A DNA stretch of 32,486 bases, from positions 1 through 32,486 of the forward strand of contig DYET01000088.1 of assembly GCA_020725625.1 (NCBI GenBank), written 5' to 3'. Shown here one piece after another: positions 4,634 to 32,354 of the stretch (the first letter of the stretch is position 1; each line of letters opens with the position of its first letter). Origin of the DNA: Desulfovirgula sp. (GTDB lineage: Bacteria; Bacillota; Desulfotomaculia; Desulfotomaculales; Desulfocucumaceae). The notes below the pieces were generated by a model that had not been told where the DNA came from, made no database searches, and worked only from the letters and a program-made list of their open reading frames with translations. The position numbers were made by a program, and so were the translations under genes.

Positions 4634-5353
4634 TTACAGCGCCGCTGTCTGTTCTCCCTGTTCCACCGGCTCTCCCTGTCTGCCTTCCAATACGGCATCG
4701 GCCATTTTGGCGGTAAGCAGCTTGACCGCCCTGATGGCATCATCGTTGCCCGGTATGACGTAATCCACTTCGTCGGGATCACAGTTGGTATCCACTATTG
4801 CCACAATGGGAATGCCCAGCTTGCGGGCTTCAGCCACAGCAATCCTTTCCTTCCGGGGATCAATGACAAAAATCGCCCCGGGAAGACGGCGCATGTCTTT
4901 AATCCCGCCCAGGAACTTGGTCAGCCGCTCTTTTTCGTGCAGCAGCTCGGCCACTTCTTTTTTGGGCAGGAGGTTCATTCTCCCGTCGGCCTCCATCCGC
5001 TCCAGTTCGTGCAGCCTGTCGATGCGGCGGCGTATGGTCTGGAAGTTAGTCAGCATCCCGCCCAGCCAGCGCTGATTTACATAGAACATGCCGCAGCGTT
5101 CAGCCTCTTCCCTGACCGCTTCCTGGGCCTGCTTCTTCGTGCCGACAAAAAGAATGGAATCACCGCTTCCGGCCAATGACTTGACAAACTCATAGGCCTC
5201 TTCAACCTTGCGCACCGTCTTCTGCAGGTCAATGATGTAAATACCGTTGCGGTCGGTAAATATATAAGGAGCCATCTTGGGGTTCCACCTTCTCGTCTGG
5301 TGTCCGAAGTGAACCCCTGCCTCCAGGAGTTGTTTCATCGATATAACAGCCAT
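4634..5353 (-). CDS. rpsB: 30S ribosomal protein S2
   Basis: S2 of the small ribosomal subunit, bound near S1 on the 30S back. The start ATG 5353 ([20 protein letters not shown]) has GGAGG upstream; a longer open frame extends upstream but is the leader, not protein. Signature parts are present: the [20 protein letters not shown] start and the segment around [19 protein letters not shown]. It is 239 residues long with an acidic tail ([12 protein letters not shown]). First gene of the translation operon. Confidence 0.97.
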
Positions 5354-5463
5354 GATACACCTCCTTCCCGCCTGGTTTTGATTCCCTCCGCCGCCTTCAT
5401 CTCCGGCAAGGCCCGGTGAGGGCACCCTTGCCCGGAATCGGGCGGCGTGTGTAGTTTGCGCCA
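5354..5463 (-). promoter_or_regulatory. Structured 5' leader of rpsB
   Basis: About 110 bases separate the promoter from the S2 start. They contain a stem GGCAAGG (5432-5426 on the minus strand) / CCTTGCC (5411-5405). S2 operons are often autoregulated through leader structure, so this is a candidate S2-binding leader; the match to a known S2 leader class was not tested. Confidence 0.4.
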
Positions 5464-5469
5464 GGATGT

Positions 5470-5499
5470 ATTCTAACATAAATTTGCACCAAATAGCAA
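5470..5499 (-). promoter_or_regulatory. rpsB: Sigma-A type promoter of the rpsB operon
   Basis: On the minus strand TTGCTA (5499-5494), an 18-base spacer and TAGAAT (5475-5470), with TGT just before the -10, giving an extended -10 element. It is the first promoter-like site upstream of rpsB and lies after the codY terminator. Confidence 0.6.
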
Positions 5500-5596: not shown

Positions 5597-6400
5597 TCAG
5601 TGCTGCTTCATCCTTTCCAGTTCCTCCAGCAGCCTGTCGTTGAGCACCCTGATATAGGTCCCCTTCATACCCAGGGACTTGGACTCGATCACCCCGGCGC
5701 TCTCAAACTTGCGCAGGGCGTTTACAATCACGCTTCTGGTGATGCCTACCCGGTCAGCTATCTTGCTGGCCACCAGCAGGCCCTCGTCACCCTCCAGCTG
5801 CTTGAAAATGTGGTGCACGGCGTCAAGCTCGGAATACGACAGGGTTCCTAGGGCAATTTGGACCGCCGCCCGCTTGCGGGCCTCCTCCTCCATGCGCCCG
5901 GCCCTCGCCCTCAATATCTCCATGCCCACCACGGTGGCGCCGTACTCGGCCAGGATCAGGTCCTCGTCGGTAAAGTGCTGGTCGAACTTGGCCAGCACCA
6001 GCGTACCCAGGCGGGACCCGGCGCCGACGATGGGAACAACCGTAGTGACCTTGTTGTTGAACTTGCACTTTTTATCGTGACTGAAAACACAAACGTTTAC
6101 AGTCTGGCAGAAATTTGCCTGGGTTTCGTTCATACGCAGAAGGCTTTCATTGAAATCCTCGGGGAAGCCTTCCGGGGATTCGACTATATCCCTCATGATT
6201 TCGCAGGTGAATCCCTTGAGGTACTGGTAGCCCAGGGTTTTCCCCCGCCTGTCGATGATGTAGACGCTGCAACCGATGTTTTCGCTCAGGATGGCGGCGA
6301 TCTCCTTGTAGTCCACCGGGTATCCGGCCGACTTCTGCAGCAGCTTGTTTATCGAACGCGTCTTATCCAGTAAAGCTCTCAACACTCCAGCTCCCTTCAT
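5597..6400 (-). CDS. codY: GTP- and branched-chain-amino-acid-sensing transcriptional repressor CodY
   Basis: A global regulator of stationary-phase and nutrient-limitation genes in Firmicutes. The 267-residue protein has the N-terminal GAF-type ligand domain (about 1-155) and the C-terminal winged helix with the recognition segment [20 protein letters not shown] (about residues 205-224), then the conserved [20 protein letters not shown]. The GAF core contains a cysteine-rich segment ([17 protein letters not shown]), unlike the Bacillus protein. The ATG overlaps the hslU TAA by one base (TAATG), so the two are coupled. Order xerC-hslV-hslU-codY matches that in Bacillus. Confidence 0.97.
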
Positions 6401-14451: not shown

Positions 14452-15423
14452 TTATACTTCGGGGTTGACGGGAAGCCCGAGTTTTAGCCGGGGGTTCCGC
14501 CCCCGCTCCCCTGCCCTGCCGGCGCCGGCGGCCGCCACCAGCCTGCCCAGGGACCGCCGTTGCCCGGACATGTCCGCCAGGATGTCCCCGTATTTGTCAA
14601 GCCGCCTGAAAATGGTGCGAATGTTGAAAGAGGCCGGATTCACCTGTTTTTTTTCCACCTCCTCCCACAGGAGTGGCGTGGACACCGGGGCCCCCGGAAG
14701 AGGCCTCAGGCTGTACTGAAAGGCCATCGTTTTACCCCGGCCGTTCTGCAGATAATCGAGGTAAACCTTGCCCCTCCTCCTGGCCACCGCCCTTTCAACG
14801 GTAGCCTTCCGGGGATGGACCGAGGCAATCAGGTCCGCTATGTACTGCATGGCCGCGGTCACCACGGGGAAAGGGTACTCACCGAATATGGGCACAAACA
14901 GGTGCAGTCCGCTGGCGCCCGAGGTCTTGACAAAGGGTACCAGGCCGAACTCATCCAGGGCCCGCCTGCAAAGCAGCGCGATTTCAACAACGTCGCCCAT
15001 GCCCGATCCCTCGGCGGGGTCAAGATCCATCACCGCAATATCGGGGCAGTCAACGTCGTCCAGAACCGAAAGCCAGGCGTGCACCTCAATGCACGCCTGG
15101 TTGGCCAGCCAGGCAAGGGTCGCCGCATCGTTGCAGACAATGTAATTAACCACTTTTTTTTCGGAATGCGGCACGGGATAGGTTTCAATCCAGTCAGGGG
15201 CGTATTCCGGGCATTCCTTCTGGTAAAAGGAATCACCGCCGATGCCGTCGGGGTACCTCTTCATGACCAGGAGCCTGTTTCGCAGGTGCGGTATGAGAAT
15301 CGGCGCTACATCCAGATAGTACTTGACCAGGTGCGCCTTGGTCAGGCCCTCGGGCCAAAAAACCTTGTCCAGGTTCGTCAGCCAAACTTCACGCCCGTCT
15401 ACCCGGGCAACAGTCTGATTCAC
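14452..15423 (-). CDS. ligD: LigD-type NHEJ polymerase/primase (stand-alone PolDom)
   Basis: An archaeo-eukaryotic-primase-type polymerase that fills gaps and adds ribonucleotides at broken DNA ends. In many bacteria it is one domain of LigD; here it is a separate 323-residue protein. Motif I is IAVMDLDP with the metal ligands Asp133 and Asp135, followed by the SGASGLHLFVPI nucleotide-binding motif and the YLDYLQN segment with the third acidic residue. The GTG at 15423 is used because GGGGG lies seven bases before it and the family begins soon after; the open frame extends to 15561 without similarity. Part of an NHEJ locus with a ligase and Ku. Confidence 0.9.
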   Translation of the reverse strand: MNQTVARVDGREVWLTNLDKVFWPEGLTKAHLVKYYLDVAPILIPHLRNRLLVMKRYPDGIGGDSFYQKECPEYAPDWIETYPVPHSEKKVVNYIVCNDAATLAWLANQACIEVHAWLSVLDDVDCPDIAVMDLDPAEGSGMGDVVEIALLCRRALDEFGLVPFVKTSGASGLHLFVPIFGEYPFPVVTAAMQYIADLIASVHPRKATVERAVARRRGKVYLDYLQNGRGKTMAFQYSLRPLPGAPVSTPLLWEEVEKKQVNPASFNIRTIFRRLDKYGDILADMSGQRRSLGRLVAAAGAGRAGERGRNPRLKLGLPVNPEV

Positions 15424-15496
15424 AGCAACACCCCCGGTATTGCAATGCCTGCTTTTTTTATTTTTTCCTCGCTGCAAAAATAAAATTGCCCGGGGC

Positions 15497-15525
15497 AAAA
15501 AAAAGAGGCCGGGCGGAAGCCGGCC
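15497..15525 (-). terminator. Intrinsic terminator upstream of the polymerase gene
   Basis: On the minus strand GGCCGG (15525-15520) and CCGGCC (15512-15507) form a stem followed by TCTTTTTTTT. It lies after the small membrane-protein gene, so the downstream polymerase gene likely needs read-through or its own start. Confidence 0.7.
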
Positions 15526-15601
15526 CGTTAGCGATATGAACCGGTCACCGGTTTTCTTCACTGGATGAAACTCAAAATTATCCGCCTGGTGCGGCCGTGT
15601 T

Positions 15602-15832
15602 TTACTCCGGGTCTCCTTTTGCCGGCGCGTTTAGATTCCGCAGCATGACATTAATCTCCTCAAAGTCGGCGGTCATTGAATTTATGCCTGTCCTGAAATT
15701 ATTGACGGCCGAAGTCATCCTGACGACTATGTTCTTAAAAACTTCCATTTTGTTTCCGGCTTCCGGATCATTTCCGATTACCAGTAAAATAAGGATTAAA
15801 AACAAAATATACGGGTTGGCCCCATAAGACAT
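15602..15832 (-). CDS. Small single-span membrane protein of unknown function
   Basis: A 76-residue protein that starts MSYGANPYILFLILILLVIG, one N-terminal membrane helix (about 8-20), followed by an amphipathic helical tail (about 27-70) rich in N, M, V and E. The ATG at 15832 has a run of six G six bases upstream, a very strong Shine-Dalgarno site. The N-terminal pattern, glycine and tyrosine before a hydrophobic stretch, recalls small YjcZ-type proteins of spore-formers, but the tail does not, so no family is claimed. It sits between the NHEJ ligase and polymerase genes and ends at a terminator. Confidence 0.7.
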   Translation of the reverse strand: MSYGANPYILFLILILLVIGNDPEAGNKMEVFKNIVVRMTSAVNNFRTGINSMTADFEEINVMLRNLNAPAKGDPE

Positions 15833-15933
15833 GAATTTCCCCCCTCGTCCAAAATTGTTGGGCCGGCCTTTTTTTTTCCATAATATGCCCCCGGTCCGCG
15901 GAGGGTGTCATGATTAAACCCCGGACATCCAGT

Positions 15934-16887
15934 TCAGGGGACTTCGCATTCCTCCACTTCCTTGTCAAACCTCAATCCCTTGAAGCTGGGGTGCCTTAGG
16001 CGGCCTTCGGCGGTTTTTTCAAGATACTCCACCGTACAAACCAGACAGGGTTTTACCCAGACGACACCCCCGGCCTCTTCCCGGGGCACTGCCACCAGGG
16101 GCCGGCTGGTGCGCAGGGGCCCAAGCCTCCGGATCAGTTCCTCCTCCGCCTCCCGGCTGAAGCCCGTGCCCACTTTCCCGGAAAACACCAGACTCCCGTT
16201 TTTATAACCGCACAACACCAGAGCCCCCAGTTTCCGCCCGCCCTTTCCCGCCCTGTAGCCGCAGATGACAAGGTCTGCCTCCCCGGAGAACCTGATTTTT
16301 TTCCAGTAGGAGGACCTTTTGCCAGGCAGGTAGGGGCTGTTCAGGGCTTTGGCCATGATCCCCTCCAATCCCCGGTCCCGGGCCGCCCTGGCGAACAATA
16401 TACCGCTGCCCCTGAGAAAATCGGAAACCACCAGGAAGGGATCCCCCTGCACCGAGTCGGCAAGCATTTCCTTGCGCCTCCTGAGAGGTTCCCCCATTAC
16501 AGGCCCGCCGGAAATATACAGGATGTCGAAGGCCATGTATACAGCGGGCATAGTTGTCGACGCCCGCCTGATTTTCAGGGGGTCGGAAAGCCTCCCTCTG
16601 GCCTGCAGGGACCCGAAGGAAGGGCGGCCTCCCGAAAAAACCACCACCTCGCCGTCCAGGAGGGCCGGCAGGTTTCTCACGGAAAGGTGCAGTCCGGCCA
16701 GTTCGGGAAAGTTGCCGGTGACATCCTTCCGGTTCCGGGAGCGCAGTTCCGTTCCCCCGGAATCGAGGTAAGCCAGGACCCGATAGCCGTCCCACTTGAC
16801 CTCGAACAGGAAATCCGGGCTGTCAAAGGGGTCAGATTTAACGGCCAGCATAGGTCTGATAATCGGGATCGGGTTTCTGCGCTCCAT
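15934..16887 (-). CDS. ligD: ATP-dependent DNA ligase (LigD-type ligase domain)
   Basis: The ligase that seals double-strand breaks in Ku-dependent end joining. A 317-residue protein with adenylation motif KWDGYR (nucleophile Lys31), motif III-like AVYMAFDILYI, motif IV GLEGIMAKALNSPY and motif V region SSYWKKIRF, then an OB-fold domain starting near DLVICGYRAG. No polymerase or nuclease domain is fused. ATG 16887 is preferred to the GTG at 16896 because AAGGTGG lies five bases upstream. Its stop is about 100 bases before the small membrane protein gene. Confidence 0.93.
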   Translation of the reverse strand: MERRNPIPIIRPMLAVKSDPFDSPDFLFEVKWDGYRVLAYLDSGGTELRSRNRKDVTGNFPELAGLHLSVRNLPALLDGEVVVFSGGRPSFGSLQARGRLSDPLKIRRASTTMPAVYMAFDILYISGGPVMGEPLRRRKEMLADSVQGDPFLVVSDFLRGSGILFARAARDRGLEGIMAKALNSPYLPGKRSSYWKKIRFSGEADLVICGYRAGKGGRKLGALVLCGYKNGSLVFSGKVGTGFSREAEEELIRRLGPLRTSRPLVAVPREEAGGVVWVKPCLVCTVEYLEKTAEGRLRHPSFKGLRFDKEVEECEVP

Positions 16888-16975
16888 GGCTTCCACCTTA
16901 ATTTATGGTATATTCTGCATAACTGTCCAATAAATTAAAATAACGACCGCACTTTATTTAACCGGGTGGGAGTCA

Positions 16976-18673: not shown

Positions 18674-20716
18674 TTATTCCCAGCCCACCTCGACGACGTC
18701 CCCGTCCTCCAGGGGGTCGGTGTACCCCGCCTGCCGCCCGTTCAGGACGAGCCTTATTTTGGTACCGGAAGTCGGGACGGGGCCGACGTCGATATGGTTG
18801 AAAACGTCCACAAAAATGTATGAGTTCTTGTTGGATAACAGTACTTTTCGGCCGTTCACGGTGATTTCGATGGCCCTTGCCGGGCCGGACCGGCCTGCCG
18901 GCCCCGGGGCGGCCGCCTCCGGCGCCTTCTTCCGGACGAACTCCACAGCGTCACCGGGAAACAGGTTTTTTTCCTCGGAAGCCCTTTTGCCGTTGACATA
19001 TATTTCCTGGACGAACAGGTCGATTCCCTTGATTTCAGCCAGCTGAAGGACGGTCTTTACCTCCCTGATTTCCACCCGGTCGCCGTCGGCTATCTCACGG
19101 TCCGGGGATACCTGTCTGCCGTTGACAAAGTACTGGGGCCCGATATTCTCCAGCTGGCCGCAGATGCGCAGGGGCAATTCCGGGTACCCGCCGGCGAAAT
19201 CGCCCACCGCGGCCCGGGCGTCCTCCCCTCTGACCGCCTTCTGGATGGTTACCCGGTCCCCGTCCGAAAGGGCGGCTTTAAGGTTGGCGGGCTTGCCGTT
19301 TATGAACACCTCGGCCGGCCTGCACAGCCCCCCGTAAATTACCTTTCTCTCCCCGTTCAGGACAAAACGCAAATCCCTCCCGTTTTTACCAACCAGGTCG
19401 CCCAGGTTGTACTCGATCAGCCCCAGGGCGTCAAACACGGTCAGTTCCCTGGAGTGGAACAGCTTGTAGTCCTTCCCGTTGATGTTCACAGTGATGAAGC
19501 TGTGCCCGACGCTGTCCAGGGCCACCTTGGCGATGCCCACCACCGTGACCCCCTCGGGGCCGTTGATTTCCTGATCATCGGCCAGCAGGTCCGGAATGAA
19601 TTTTCTCCCCCGCAGGCCGACCCTCTCCGGGGCCAGCCCGAGCTTTTCGGCGATCCTGTCAGTAAAGGTGGGAACCTGGCCGCCTCCCCCGACACAAAAG
19701 ACCGACTTCGGGGGCCTGTTCCCGTTCAGCCGCAAAATCTCCTCGGTTATCCTGGAGGCGATCCCGTCCAGGACCGGGTCCAGCATTTCCACGGCTTCCG
19801 CACAGCTGATGGTTCTCTCGATCCCCATTATGTCTTTGAATATTATGTCCCCGCCCCCGGCCAATTCCCTCTTCACCGCCTCGGCGGTGTTGAAATCGGC
19901 CAGGCAGCCCTGGGCCAGGGCCTCTGTAATCTCGTCACCGGCCAGCGGGACCATCCCGTAAGCCACGATTGACCCGTCCCTGGTAATGGCGATGTCCGAC
20001 GTGCCGGCGCCGATGTCCAGCAGGGCCAGGTTCAGCAGCCTGTAGGATTCTGGGATGACCGCGCTGGCTGCGGCGATGGGTTCCAGAGTCAGGCTGACCG
20101 GATCCAGGTTGACCCTGCCCAGCACCGAATAAAGGCTGTTGACCACGGAATTCGGAAGGAAGGTGGCCAGCACGTCAACGCCTATTTTCCTGCCGTAATG
20201 GCCCACCAGACTGGTCATGGTATATCCGTTCAGGTAGTAGCCGACCACCGTGTACCCGACACAGTAAAACTCCTCTTCATCGCCGTCCGTGCCTTCCTCC
20301 CGCAGCTGCCGGTGGGCCTCCTTGACGGCATCCATCTCCAGGCCCCGGCAGATGACCGGGTCGATCTCGATGTCGTCCCCTATTTCTTGTTCCATGTGGG
20401 CAAACCGGGTCTTGAGCAACCTGCCGGCCGCCGCGATGGCCACCTTTCCCAGGCTGAACCCCATCTTTTCCTCGAGATCGTTCTTGACCTTCTTGACTGC
20501 CTGGGCCACCTTGAATATATCGTGAATTTGTCCGTCGAAAACGGCCCTGCTCTCGTGTTCAGTGATGCTTTGAGCCAGGATCTTCAGGCTGGCGTCCTCA
20601 ACCCCCGCCACAATGCCGATTACCGTCCTAGTGCCGATGTCCAGGGCGAAAATCGTGTTCTCAGGCTGCCAGCGGGCAGAGCTCTCCAATTTCTCACCGG
20701 AACCTGGCATGATCAT
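18674..20716 (-). CDS. FtsA/PilM-like actin-fold ATPase with C-terminal VNG-DGD repeat tail
   Basis: A 680-residue protein whose first 410 residues form an actin-family ATPase of the FtsA type: phosphate-1 motif FALDIGTRTVIGIVAG (about 23-38), phosphate-2 motif LLDIGAGTSDIAITRDG and the adenosine motif VFCVGGGGQVPTF, with the SHS2-like insertion between. The rest, about 250 residues, is not in normal FtsA. It holds four copies of a V-x-V/I-N-G-x14-D/P-G-D-x-V-x-I pattern at about 470-494, 529-553, 572-596 and 656-680, typical of small beta-grasp modules. ATG 20716 with GGGGAG seven bases upstream is chosen over ATG 20770. It is not the cell-division ftsA, which would sit next to ftsZ. Likely cytoskeletal or membrane-associated; role unknown. 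Confidence 0.8.
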   Translation of the reverse strand: MIMPGSGEKLESSARWQPENTIFALDIGTRTVIGIVAGVEDASLKILAQSITEHESRAVFDGQIHDIFKVAQAVKKVKNDLEEKMGFSLGKVAIAAAGRLLKTRFAHMEQEIGDDIEIDPVICRGLEMDAVKEAHRQLREEGTDGDEEEFYCVGYTVVGYYLNGYTMTSLVGHYGRKIGVDVLATFLPNSVVNSLYSVLGRVNLDPVSLTLEPIAAASAVIPESYRLLNLALLDIGAGTSDIAITRDGSIVAYGMVPLAGDEITEALAQGCLADFNTAEAVKRELAGGGDIIFKDIMGIERTISCAEAVEMLDPVLDGIASRITEEILRLNGNRPPKSVFCVGGGGQVPTFTDRIAEKLGLAPERVGLRGRKFIPDLLADDQEINGPEGVTVVGIAKVALDSVGHSFITVNINGKDYKLFHSRELTVFDALGLIEYNLGDLVGKNGRDLRFVLNGERKVIYGGLCRPAEVFINGKPANLKAALSDGDRVTIQKAVRGEDARAAVGDFAGGYPELPLRICGQLENIGPQYFVNGRQVSPDREIADGDRVEIREVKTVLQLAEIKGIDLFVQEIYVNGKRASEEKNLFPGDAVEFVRKKAPEAAAPGPAGRSGPARAIEITVNGRKVLLSNKNSYIFVDVFNHIDVGPVPTSGTKIRLVLNGRQAGYTDPLEDGDVVEVGWE

Positions 20717-20846
20717 GGGAACACTCCCCTGAAGTCGTTTTATAATCACAATTTCGATATCATGGTACAATTTCCTTTTTCGTCTCGACAGCCCTTTTTA
20801 CCTTAACCGGCATGAACTCCATAAGACCACTTTTCCTTTGAGAGTA

Positions 20847-28358: not shown

Positions 28359-28823
28359 CTAGCCCTTAAGCTTAACAATCATCTCCACTTCCACCGCCGC
28401 TCCCAGGGGAAGTTCGCTCACTCCGACCGCCGCCCTGGCATGCCTGCCGGCCTCCCCGAAAACCTCGCCCAGCAGGTCCGAGGCGCCGTTGAGCACCCCG
28501 GGCTGGCCGGTAAAGCCGGGGGCGCTGTTGACATAACCGGTCACTTTGATTATTCTTTCGATTCCGTCCAGGCTGCCCGCCGCCTCCTTCACCGCCCCGA
28601 GGCAGTTGAGGGCGCAGATTCTGGCGGCCTCGTAACCCTGAACCTCCGTCAGGTCGGCCCCCACCCTGCCCTTGTACCTGAGTTCCCCGTCCACAAAGGG
28701 CACCTGGCCCGAGGTAAATATGTAATCGCCCACCCGGACCGCCGGCACATAGGAACCCGCCGGCCTGGGGGCCGGGGGCAGGTCGATACCCAGTTCTTTT
28801 AGTTTTGCTTCGTACACGCTCAT
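28359..28823 (-). CDS. RidA (YjgF/YER057c/UK114) family protein
   Basis: Members hydrolyse reactive imines and enamines made by PLP enzymes. The 154-residue protein is longer than classic RidA (about 125) with an N-terminal extension, [20 protein letters not shown], the mark of the longer RidA subgroup. It has [15 protein letters not shown], the L-N-C-L-G-A-V-K helix and VEVEMIVKL at the end. The catalytic Arg-type residue of archetypal RidA proteins is not in its usual place in the visible C-terminal part ([12 protein letters not shown]), so imine hydrolysis is not certain. AAGGAGATA precedes ATG 28823. Confidence 0.88.
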
Positions 28824-29086: not shown

Positions 29087-29320
29087 TAAAACGTTAATTT
29101 GAATATATTAATATCACCATTTCTCCTTTTTGTCCATAAAAAATCAGCCCGGATTACACCGGAGGGCTGGTAGAACAGCACCCCGGCCGCCGGCGGCGGA
29201 AAACGCCGGCAGACCGCCGCCGCAGTAAAACAGGAAAAACGGGCCCGGTGTTAAATTTATATAACGTGCCATCTCCCATGATCCTGTGTTTCATACATTG
29301 CCGGAAGGGGGTAACGCCTG

Positions 29321-30529
29321 GTGAAAACCCCGGCGGTGGCGGGGGGCAGGCCGGTGCGGGGAAACCCGCTGCCCTTCGCCGCACCAATGATAGATGAGGA
29401 CGACATCCGGTCGGTGGCCGATTCGCTGCGGGGAGGCGTACTCTCCATGGGCAGTGCGGTTGCCCGGTTCGAAGAGGCCTTTGCCTCCTATACCGGGTCG
29501 AAATATGCGGTGGCGGTTTCCAGCGGCGCCGCCGGACTGCACATCGCCCTCATGGCGGGGGGAATCGGCCCCCAGGAGGAGGTCATCGCCTCGCCCCTGG
29601 CCCGCCCGGCTGCGGTCAACTGCATCCTTTACCAAAAGGCTGTACCTGTCTTCACTGACGTCTCCCCGTCAACAATGACCCTGGACCCGGAAAAGGTCCC
29701 GGCCAGGCTGACCGACCGGACCCGGGCCGTGATCATCACCCATTACGGGGGCTTTCCCTGCCGGCTGGACCCGTTGCTGGAAATCGCCGGAGAAAGAAAT
29801 CTCCTGGTCATTGAAGACTCCACCCGCGCCCTGGGCGCCCTCTACCGCGGGAGGATGGCGGGGACATACGGCCACATGGGGGTTTTCAGCTTTTCCGGGC
29901 TGCAGGGTGTGACCACCGGAGAGGGCGGCATGGTGGTCACGGACGACGAGGAAACCGCCCGCTGGCTGGCCATGTTCAGAGACGGCGGAATGATCCGGGA
30001 AAGGGAGAGGCTGACCAGGGACCTTGGGCCCTGGCACCGGGAGATGCAGGACCTGGGCTACAACTACCGGATGACCGAGATGCAGGCGGCCCTGGGACTT
30101 TCACAGATCCAAAAGGCCAACCTTTTCTTAAAGCGGCGGGCGGAAATAGCAAGGAAATACACGGCGGCGCTGGGAGGGCTTGAACAGCTGGTTGTTCCCG
30201 AAATTGCCGAGGGATCCCGCCCCTCCTGGGAAATCTACCCCCTGCGGATTAGGCCCGGCCTCCTGTCAGCCGGCCGCAGGGAAATATTCGAGGCTATCCA
30301 AAAGGAAAACATCGGCTTGGACGTCAACTACCTGCCCGTGCACATCCAGCCGTATTACCTGTGGATTGGCCACCCGGACGTCTGCACCATTGTTGACAGC
30401 CTTTGCCCTGTGGCCGAAGAAATATACGAAAACCTGATCTGCCTTCCTATCTACCCGGCCATGACCGACCGGGACGTGGAGGATGTAATCACGGCGGTTT
30501 ACAGGGTAATCAACCACTTCAGCCGGTAA
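29321..30529 (+). CDS. DegT/DnrJ/EryC1/StrS-type aminotransferase homologue lacking the catalytic lysine
   Basis: A 402-residue protein of the PLP-dependent sugar aminotransferase fold, with the expected layout: N-terminal pockets, SSGAAGLHIAL, the PLP-pyridine Asp in VIEDSTRALGA and the catalytic-loop region FSFSGLQGVTTGEGGMVV. In working aminotransferases that loop is FS-x-x-x-x-K-x-x-T-T-G-E-G-G with Lys binding PLP. Here residue 195 is Gln (CAG, 29903-29905). The usual EDAAHA is EDSTRA. The rest is intact to the end, GTG start behind GGGGGT. So it is a full-length member that may bind PLP non-covalently, do another reaction or be inactive. Substrate unknown; no neighbouring sugar genes. 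Confidence 0.9.
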   Translation: MKTPAVAGGRPVRGNPLPFAAPMIDEDDIRSVADSLRGGVLSMGSAVARFEEAFASYTGSKYAVAVSSGAAGLHIALMAGGIGPQEEVIASPLARPAAVNCILYQKAVPVFTDVSPSTMTLDPEKVPARLTDRTRAVIITHYGGFPCRLDPLLEIAGERNLLVIEDSTRALGALYRGRMAGTYGHMGVFSFSGLQGVTTGEGGMVVTDDEETARWLAMFRDGGMIRERERLTRDLGPWHREMQDLGYNYRMTEMQAALGLSQIQKANLFLKRRAEIARKYTAALGGLEQLVVPEIAEGSRPSWEIYPLRIRPGLLSAGRREIFEAIQKENIGLDVNYLPVHIQPYYLWIGHPDVCTIVDSLCPVAEEIYENLICLPIYPAMTDRDVEDVITAVYRVINHFSR

Positions 30530-30628: not shown

Positions 30629-31030
30629 TTACCCCAGGGGAAGAAGCTTCATCAGCGTTGAGATTCCCCTGCCCCTGCCGATGTAACCGGGGTCGTAATT
30701 TTTCCAGAACTGATAGGCCCAGGGGGTGTTCAGCTCAAATACCACCGGCCGGTCGGGGAACTTTTCCCGGACATAGTCCACCAGGGCACTGGCGTAACCC
30801 CGCCTGCGGTACTTGGGCCGGGTCTCCACCGACACTATGCCGACCACTCCCTTTTCCGGACACCACGGGGGGTCCAGTTGCCATGCTATTCTGGACACCA
30901 GTTCCCCGTTTTCCAGGACGCCGTTGAAATTGCAGCCGATCAGATCGGAAATCCAGGCGAAGCTCAGCATCTCATCGTCTTCAAAAGTCCGGCACAGAGG
31001 GGAACTGGGGGTGATGCTGATAAGTTCCAT
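30629..31030 (-). CDS. GNAT family N-acetyltransferase
   Basis: A 133-residue acetyl-CoA-dependent transferase. The acetyl-CoA motif A is seen as GIVSVETRPKYRRRGYASAL, with the R-x-x-G-x-A loop, at about residues 66-85; the following helix VDYVREKFPDRPVVFELN and the C-terminal YQFWKNYDP complete the fold. The N terminus carries a less usual SFAWISDLIGCNFNGVLENG strand. ATG 31030 has AGGAAGTG upstream. The substrate cannot be assigned. It is downstream of yhbH by about 175 bases on the same strand. Confidence 0.88.
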   Translation of the reverse strand: MELISITPSSPLCRTFEDDEMLSFAWISDLIGCNFNGVLENGELVSRIAWQLDPPWCPEKGVVGIVSVETRPKYRRRGYASALVDYVREKFPDRPVVFELNTPWAYQFWKNYDPGYIGRGRGISTLMKLLPLG

Positions 31031-31205: not shown

Positions 31206-32354
31206 TCAGGCTCTTATGTTTTCCGGGGCCGGGGAAAAAAACTTTTTCAAGGCCGGGTACACGCCGGTCTTGTCCTTTATGGTCACCACCGTGAACTTCT
31301 GGTCGGTTATCTTTTTGTAGGCCGACCTTAAGGTGCTGGTATAATAGTAAGGGCCTTCAATCTCACCGTACCCGACCAGGTTGCACTTAGTCAAAAGCTC
31401 TCCCACCAGCTTAACGCACAGGTCGTTGTCCGAAGCCAAGTTATCCCCGTCCGAGAAATGAAAGGCGTAAATGTTGTAGTCCTGGGGGCTGTACCTCTTT
31501 TCAATTATATCCAAGGCCAGGCGGTAAACCGAAGAGCAGCGCGTTCCGCCGCTTGCGCCCTTGGTGAAAAACTCTTCCTCGGTTGTTTCCTTGGCCTCAA
31601 CGTGATGGGCCAGGAACACAATGTGAACATTCTGGTACTTGGTCCGCAGAAACCTGACCATCCAGAAGAAAAAGCTGCGGGCGATGTACTTCTCGTATGC
31701 ACCCATGGACCCCGAAGTGTCCATCATGGCCAGAACCACGGCGCTGGACTCGAACTTGTAGGTCGTCTCCCAGGTTTTAAAGCGCAGGTCTTCCTTTTTG
31801 ATGCCGTGAATTCCGGGGCTCCCGCTCAGGGCATTGCGCTTCAGCACCTCGTAGATGGTCCGCTTCCGGTCGATGTTGCTTGATATGCCAGTTTTCCTGA
31901 CGTCTTTGAATTCGATGGATTCCGAGGAGAGATCGGGCTTTTTCTTCTTCTCCAGGTTGGGCAGCCCGAGGTCTTCGAAAATTAAATCAGCCAGTTCATC
32001 AATTGAGATATCCGTCTCGTAATAGTCTATTCCCGGTTCCTCCCCGGCCCCTTTGCCCTTGCCGCCCTGCTGCGGCTCCGACCCCAGCACGTCCCCCACA
32101 TTGCTTTTTCCGTCACCCTGCCCGGCGTGCTTCTTTTTCCCCTGATCGAAACGGAAATGGTACTCGTCCAGGGAGCGGATGGGCACCCTGATTACCTTGT
32201 TTCCGTCGGACAGGATGATGCTTTCTTCACTGACTACGTCGGCCAGGTTCTTCTTTAACGCTTCCTTGACCTTTTCCCGGTGACGCTGCCGGTCGATCTC
32301 CCCCTTGCGGTGAAGCGACCAGTCGTCCCGGGAAACCCTGTACAGATCAGACAT
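31206..32354 (-). CDS. yhbH: Sporulation protein YhbH (DUF444)
   Basis: YhbH is a mother-cell sporulation protein that in Bacillus and relatives is encoded with prkA and close to spoVR; its exact role is unclear. The 382-residue protein has a charged N-terminal part, a linker with glycine, lysine and acidic residues (about 65-135) and a von Willebrand A-like domain with the metal-binding D-T-S-G-S motif (MMDTSGSMG, about 215) and THHVEAKETTEEEFF-like segment. ATG 32354 is preceded by GGAGGG. A CATATAAT sequence (32439-32432 on the minus strand), like a sigma-E -10, lies about 80 bases upstream, without a clear -35. prkA is probably beyond the window. Confidence 0.93.
   Translation of the reverse strand: MSDLYRVSRDDWSLHRKGEIDRQRHREKVKEALKKNLADVVSEESIILSDGNKVIRVPIRSLDEYHFRFDQGKKKHAGQGDGKSNVGDVLGSEPQQGGKGKGAGEEPGIDYYETDISIDELADLIFEDLGLPNLEKKKKPDLSSESIEFKDVRKTGISSNIDRKRTIYEVLKRNALSGSPGIHGIKKEDLRFKTWETTYKFESSAVVLAMMDTSGSMGAYEKYIARSFFFWMVRFLRTKYQNVHIVFLAHHVEAKETTEEEFFTKGASGGTRCSSVYRLALDIIEKRYSPQDYNIYAFHFSDGDNLASDNDLCVKLVGELLTKCNLVGYGEIEGPYYYTSTLRSAYKKITDQKFTVVTIKDKTGVYPALKKFFSPAPENIRA

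Follow-up and report, generated by a model that had tools for sequence, protein, structure and literature searches.

Does a sugar-aminotransferase homologue that has lost its PLP lysine remain an enzyme, or is it retained for another function? This question is raised by an open reading frame in the 32,486-nucleotide stretch of Desulfovirgula sp. DNA analysed here (contig DYET01000088.1), which we call the window. The frame runs from a GTG start to a TAA stop and has no internal stop codon. A Shine-Dalgarno-like sequence precedes it (Table 1). The protein is intact with a normal start, as described in the initial annotation. The protein matched PF01041 over residues 23–393 with 332.7 bits against a gathering score of 19.8. 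Among the NCBIfam profiles, PseC (TIGR03588) gave the best full-length match, with 333.7 bits against an equivalog cut-off of 423.5, and so it falls short of that cut-off. The AF2 model (pLDDT 84.9, pTM 0.86) had fold type I (aspartate-aminotransferase), and in Foldseek comparisons this predicted model gave TM values of 0.84–0.85 against ArnB, perosamine synthase and PseC.

From the phmmer alignment we observed that FSFSGLQGVTTGEGG of the query lies opposite FSFFGNKIITTGEGG of GDP-perosamine synthase, and therefore Q195 occupies the Schiff-base position. The initial annotation had read a Gln195 (CAG) at the PLP-lysine site and a change of EDAAHA to EDSTRA. The former was confirmed by this alignment and by the orthologues described below, and the latter was also seen, with D166 retained and the O3′-binding His replaced by Arg169.

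Table 1. Positions of the lysine-less gene, its altered site and its neighbours in the window
Feature	Position	Strand	Basis or remark
Lysine-less PseC-type DegT/DnrJ/EryC1/StrS homologue, 402 aa	29321..30529	+	ORF, PF01041, TIGR03588, AF2, Foldseek
Shine-Dalgarno-like GGAAGGGGG	29303..29311	+	9 nt 5′ of GTG start; read from the sequence
Ala70 for phosphate-binding Thr (Spr1654 Thr59)	29528..29530	+	T in 40/40 Lys rows, 17/40 lysine-less rows
Arg95 for PLP-packing aromatic (PseC Phe84, Spr1654 Tyr84)	29603..29605	+	F in 40/40 Lys rows, 5/40 lysine-less rows
Asp166, pyridine-nitrogen aspartate, retained	29816..29818	+	D in 39/40 lysine-less rows
Arg169 for PLP O3′-binding His	29825..29827	+	H in 40/40 Lys rows, 15/40 lysine-less rows
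Ser192 for substrate/amino-donor His (Spr1654 His196)	29894..29896	+	H in 40/40 Lys rows, 7/40 lysine-less rows
Codon 195, CAG (Gln), Schiff-base lysine position	29903..29905	+	phmmer alignment, orthologue alignment
PYYLWIGHPDVCT segment with W348, P352, C355	30350..30388	+	All three invariant in 40/40 lysine-less rows
GNAT-family neighbour, convergent	30629..31030	−	Profile match; neighbour in G001 and G005 too
YhbH sporulation protein (TIGR02877)	31206..32354	−	Profile match; neighbour in G001 and G005 too

Homologues were searched in 113 genomes of the order Desulfotomaculales and 398 of the phylum, and 82 proteins were aligned. The genomes surveyed included Desulfotomaculum gibsoniae (G086; PMC4148979), D. 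acetoxidans (G030; PMC3035247) and D. ruminis (G039; PMC3569383), an f11 genome whose lysine-less gene is at C1:1265186–1266289. We observed that the Schiff-base column of the 82 proteins holds Lys in 42, Gln in 24, Asn in 7, Ala in 4, Gly in 2, Ser in 2 and Glu in 1. The 40 rows with a residue other than Lys are full-length orthologues from Desulfotomaculales, and two further members, G071 (Q) and G058 (A, a fragment), bring the lysine-less orthologues to 42 genomes. Neither Lys nor His occurs at this column in any of the 40 full-length rows of the clade. Gln195 is shared by the two nearest relatives, G001 and G005 (82% and 73% identity; records L032 and L033, Peptococcaceae MAGs). As Gln is kept in these two and Lys is found in none of the 40 rows, Gln195 is not a chance event.

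The initial annotation had left room for orthologues all carrying Lys, which would point to a recent point mutation or a sequence error. We found Lys to be missing across many families of the order; a recent mutation or sequencing error at codon 195 is thereby ruled out, and the change is old and selected. Lys was present in every match fetched from elsewhere in the phylum apart from one contig, G234:C296 (L162). We did not accept it as a lysine-less member from outside the order; it is probably bin contamination, because the flagellar operon on this contig resembles that of family f11 and the bin is 83% complete and 4% contaminated.

A maximum-likelihood tree was built from 81 proteins. It grouped all 40 lysine-less rows in one clade (support 98/97) nested among Lys-bearing PseC-type enzymes, and this clade persisted at 94/91 when the active-site segments and columns were removed. 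Its sister consists of Lys-bearing proteins of families f8, f14, f5 and f2, also of Desulfotomaculales. The lysine-less gene and this sister never occur together in one genome, and so they behave as one orthologous gene. The tree and the alignment indicate that the lysine was lost once, long ago, and that its replacement has since varied between Q, N, A, G, S and E. The single-base change from Lys proposed in the initial annotation is feasible at the codon level, but the substitution goes back to a deep branch of the tree and did not arise in the window genome. Gln is present in 24 of the 33 rows of the larger subclade, and the conservation of the column is somewhat above that of the median site (rank 148 of 402); this retention could reflect a specific role for Gln. 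Pairwise dN/dS values were 0.06–0.145 for the lysine-less genes and 0.125 for a pair of the Lys-bearing sister. The lysine-less gene is kept as a protein under purifying selection.

Next, we compared the rest of the cofactor and substrate site with the structure of Spr1654 (PMC5936713), in which Lys199 forms the Schiff base, Asp170 contacts the ring nitrogen and His173 the O3′, Tyr84 (Phe84 in PseC) packs on the PLP ring, Ser194 and Thr59 contact the phosphate, Glu205/Gly206 act via water, and His196 serves the amino donor and the sugar. Contacts were mapped by their spacing from the lysine and the insertions given in that paper; the window equivalents are, in the same order, Q195, D166, R169, R95, S190, A70, E201/G202 and S192. 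The mapped positions are invariant in all 40 Lys rows. In the lysine-less rows the ancestral residue is left to very different extents (Table 1): Gly202 in 39 of 40, Ser190 in 25, Asn248 in 23 and Glu201 in 18, and position 95 holds His in 22 rows and Pro in 10. We take Asn248 to be a phosphate contact from the other subunit, as in ArnB. Ser190 has become Asp in 12 of the 40 rows, in most of f3 and f11, where the acidic side chain should repel the PLP phosphate. When the columns invariant in Lys rows were considered, the lysine-less rows kept the residue 43% of the time in active-site columns and 75% of the time in the others (p = 0.0024). No conserved lysine gained elsewhere was found in the alignment of the lysine-less clade, and a relocated lysine or a conserved substitute catalytic residue was rejected as it left no sign there.

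The site of the window copy may not be empty. The pocket has gained Arg95 and Arg169, and the window lineage retains Asp166, Ser190, Glu201 and Asn248, so it is possible that it still binds PLP or PMP, a PLP–sugar adduct or another anionic ligand. Loss of the lysine does not by itself empty such a site, since crystals of ArnB K188A, going by the title of the PDB entry, contain both PLP and UDP-Ara4N. We also observed that the three invariant residues of the PYYLWIGHPDVCT segment are mostly present in the Lys-bearing sister and largely missing from PseC proper; confidence of the AF2 model is low at 347–356.

The genomic position of the gene varies among the families. In f3 (N/E/G), f11 (Q) and f17 (A/S/G) it lies upstream of flgB-flgC-fliE-fliF-fliG-fliH-fliI, usually 150–700 bp and up to 2.7 kb from flgB, and in f3 and f11 fliD, a FliT/FlgN-like gene and flaG stand just ahead of it (FliS and FliH were assigned by position, and the identity of FliG also by a separate search). 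The Lys-bearing sister of f8 and f5 is likewise located upstream of flgB. In f1 (the family of the window), f16, f12, f18 and f10, the gene occupies other positions; in the window, as in G001 and G005, a GNAT gene and yhbH face it in convergent orientation. FliG was found in 40 of the 42 lysine-less genomes and in 49 of the remaining 71 (Fisher p = 7e-4, phylogeny ignored), and in the two exceptions, G065 and G090, the gene copies are relocated. The flagellar link may be history and not function, because these two genomes lack FliG and because the gene is off the cluster in f1, f16, f12 and f18.

PseB scored over the cut-off in only 7 of the 42 lysine-less genomes. The window genome, which is 97% complete, gave no match to PseB or PseI at E ≤ 1e-60. 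The protein is therefore independent of pseudaminic-acid synthesis; co-occurrence of the gene with this pathway was considered and dropped (p = 0.25). Several f8 genomes have the Lys-bearing sister upstream of flgB and no PseB over the cut-off (for example G014 and G054; L137, L140 and relatives), and the substrate of the sister itself is for this reason probably not the PseB product.

In one genome, G009 (L051), the element TAAA-N15-GCCGATAA spans 48 to 22 bases 5′ of the lysine-less gene and matches the flagellar sigma-D consensus in full (12/12, with 0 of 40 shuffles as good). Scans for sigma-D, sigma-E and sigma-G sites revealed no promoter type common to the lysine-less genes, and CATACATT at about −30 in the window was discarded as a promoter, the relatives giving no support. 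No operon partner is conserved across the families. RidA (28359–28823) was rejected as a partner, since it does not adjoin the lysine-less gene in either G001 or G005. In f16, f12 and f18 a class I/II aminotransferase is encoded close by, perhaps only because these families have their gene order in common.

Elsewhere in the window, codY (5600–6400) has rpsB (4637–5479) directly after it, and hslU, a XerC-like integrase gene, a GidA-family gene, topA and dprA are on the other side. In Bacillus subtilis, a large fla/che operon lies between codY and rpsB. FliG of the window genome is on a separate contig, C193. A LigD-type primase-polymerase adjoins an ATP-dependent DNA ligase at 14455–16896, these being parts of a bacterial end-joining system, and an ORF at 18674–20770 encodes a 698-aa FtsA/PilM-like ATPase whose C-terminal half has weak TGS/ThiS-like (ubiquitin-like) matches, an unusual mix of domains.

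The explanation that we favour, with a probability of roughly 60%, is that the protein is a PseC-derived pseudoenzyme of single origin that has lost transaminase function and is probably a binding or scaffold protein for flagella or surface glycans. The ancestor would have been a PseC-type nucleotide-sugar aminotransferase gene upstream of flgB-flgC-fliE-fliFGHI, in some families directly after the filament genes fliD-fliS-fliT-flaG, a locus that is still occupied in many genomes. One loss of the lysine was followed by lineage-specific decay of the other catalytic and cofactor contacts, and the predicted fold is kept by purifying selection. We infer that the resulting protein can no longer transaminate with PLP and has been retained as a pseudoenzyme. 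It is most likely a dimer, and its old cofactor/nucleotide-sugar pocket or its surface would serve a binding or scaffold role in flagellar assembly or on surface glycans. The window copy would have moved from the flagellar locus to its present place beside yhbH. The marks of a pseudoenzyme are seen here: the catalytic motif is lost, the predicted fold and selection are kept and no catalytic residue has migrated. A bolder and more tentative version would be an order-wide, dedicated factor for motility or surface assembly, in which the dead enzyme upstream of flgB became a ligand sensor or scaffold and was later relocated in several families, with a new role.

Among the fates listed in the initial annotation, an inactive or regulatory protein fits best and a new ColD-like reaction fits poorly, since the replacement varies and the ring-packing aromatic, O3′-binding and substrate-binding residues are gone. 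Made from the letters of one sequence, that annotation had no view of the association with flagellar loci, of the broader erosion of the site or of Gln being just the most frequent of several replacements. A more specific form of our favoured explanation is a sensor: the defunct site would bind some anion, for instance PLP or a nucleotide sugar, and signal the level of this ligand to flagellar or envelope assembly. The pocket, turned basic (Arg95 and Arg169 in the window, His at 95 in many) upon a conserved scaffold, and the place of the gene beside flagellar genes in f3, f11 and f17 agree with such a sensor. However, the protein has no effector domain and the ligand is only hypothetical, and as the pocket letters vary between families one common ligand is doubtful; in this specific form the proposal is rather doubtful.

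It is unlikely that the protein has stayed catalytic but with changed chemistry, such as that of a PMP-dependent dehydratase, with Gln195 or another residue doing the work of the lysine. There are true PMP enzymes of the same superfamily, ColD, E1 and SpnQ, in which His replaces the lysine (PMC8987622), and the four contacts retained in the window lineage, together with the Gln held across several families, would suit such a reaction. However, the lysine-less clade conserves no acid/base residue where those enzymes use His, which makes a ColD-like dehydratase unlikely; moreover, most f3 and f11 members carry Asp in place of the phosphate-pocket Ser, and profile matches in the window revealed no 4,6-dehydratase or other sugar gene adjoining the gene.

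Another proposal, which we regard as improbable, is that the protein is the non-catalytic subunit of a heterodimer with an active PseC, analogous to LCB1, the non-catalytic partner in serine palmitoyltransferase. Eleven lysine-less genomes do have a second PseC-type match (E ≤ 1e-100), which in G001 and G005 is a Lys-bearing PseC within a pse cluster. But the only other DegT protein of the window genome shares 36% identity and branches well away from the lysine-less clade, and PseB is rare among the 42 genomes, as described above. Finally, gene decay, or an artefact of sequencing or assembly, has nothing but the odd residue in its favour and next to no likelihood in view of the full-length frame, the low dN/dS and the shared loss of the lysine in 42 genomes, in a single clade, and the initial annotation was right that this is not a simple pseudogene.

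Our favoured reading, a pseudoenzyme, bears on annotation: PseC/ArnB-type sugar aminotransferases are annotated as active from the family match alone, and a PF01041 match would label the lysine-less clade as aminotransferases in every genome that carries it. The clade also offers a natural series from a PLP enzyme to a non-enzyme, with a single loss that has a definite place on the tree, living sisters at the same locus and graded decay, for example in the phosphate Ser, which has become Asp in two families and is intact in others. It further draws attention to a protein, as yet uncharacterised, that is associated with the flagellar cluster in spore-forming sulfate reducers and related bacteria. 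Pseudoenzymes as such are already known, and so are lysine-less relatives that carry out new reactions. In the literature searched we found no pseudoenzyme described from the PseC/ArnB group, no lysine-less PseC, and no order-wide lysine-less clade inside the PseC group with a Lys sister at the same flagellar locus.

Among known systems, the protein resembles PseC (UDP-4-amino-4,6-dideoxy-N-acetyl-beta-L-altrosamine transaminase) in its predicted fold (TM 0.84 to 2fnu), in its nesting among PseC-type proteins and in the ancestral place of its clade beside flagellar genes. It differs from PseC in scoring below the TIGR03588 cut-off, in the replacement of the Schiff-base Lys and of the equivalents of F84, H173, H196 and T59, and in belonging to a genome without PseB and PseI. 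The nearest solved sequences and structures are those of GDP-perosamine synthase (3bn1/3dr7; 34% identity) and ArnB (1mdo/4oca; 32%), but both have the lysine and a complete cofactor site, engineered K-to-A mutants excepted. The Lys-bearing PseC-like orphan gene of f8, for example in G054 (probably Desulfotomaculum kuznetsovii), is its sister in the tree and shares the locus upstream of flgB and most of the W348/P352/C355 segment, whereas its PLP site is complete. With the PMP-dependent 3-dehydratases ColD, E1 and SpnQ it has in common a sugar-aminotransferase fold without the Schiff-base lysine; in those enzymes the acid/base His is conserved, whereas in the lysine-less clade the residue varies and is never His. 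With pseudoenzymes in general, as portrayed in a review (PMC10211241), it shares a fold retained under selection after the catalytic motif has gone.
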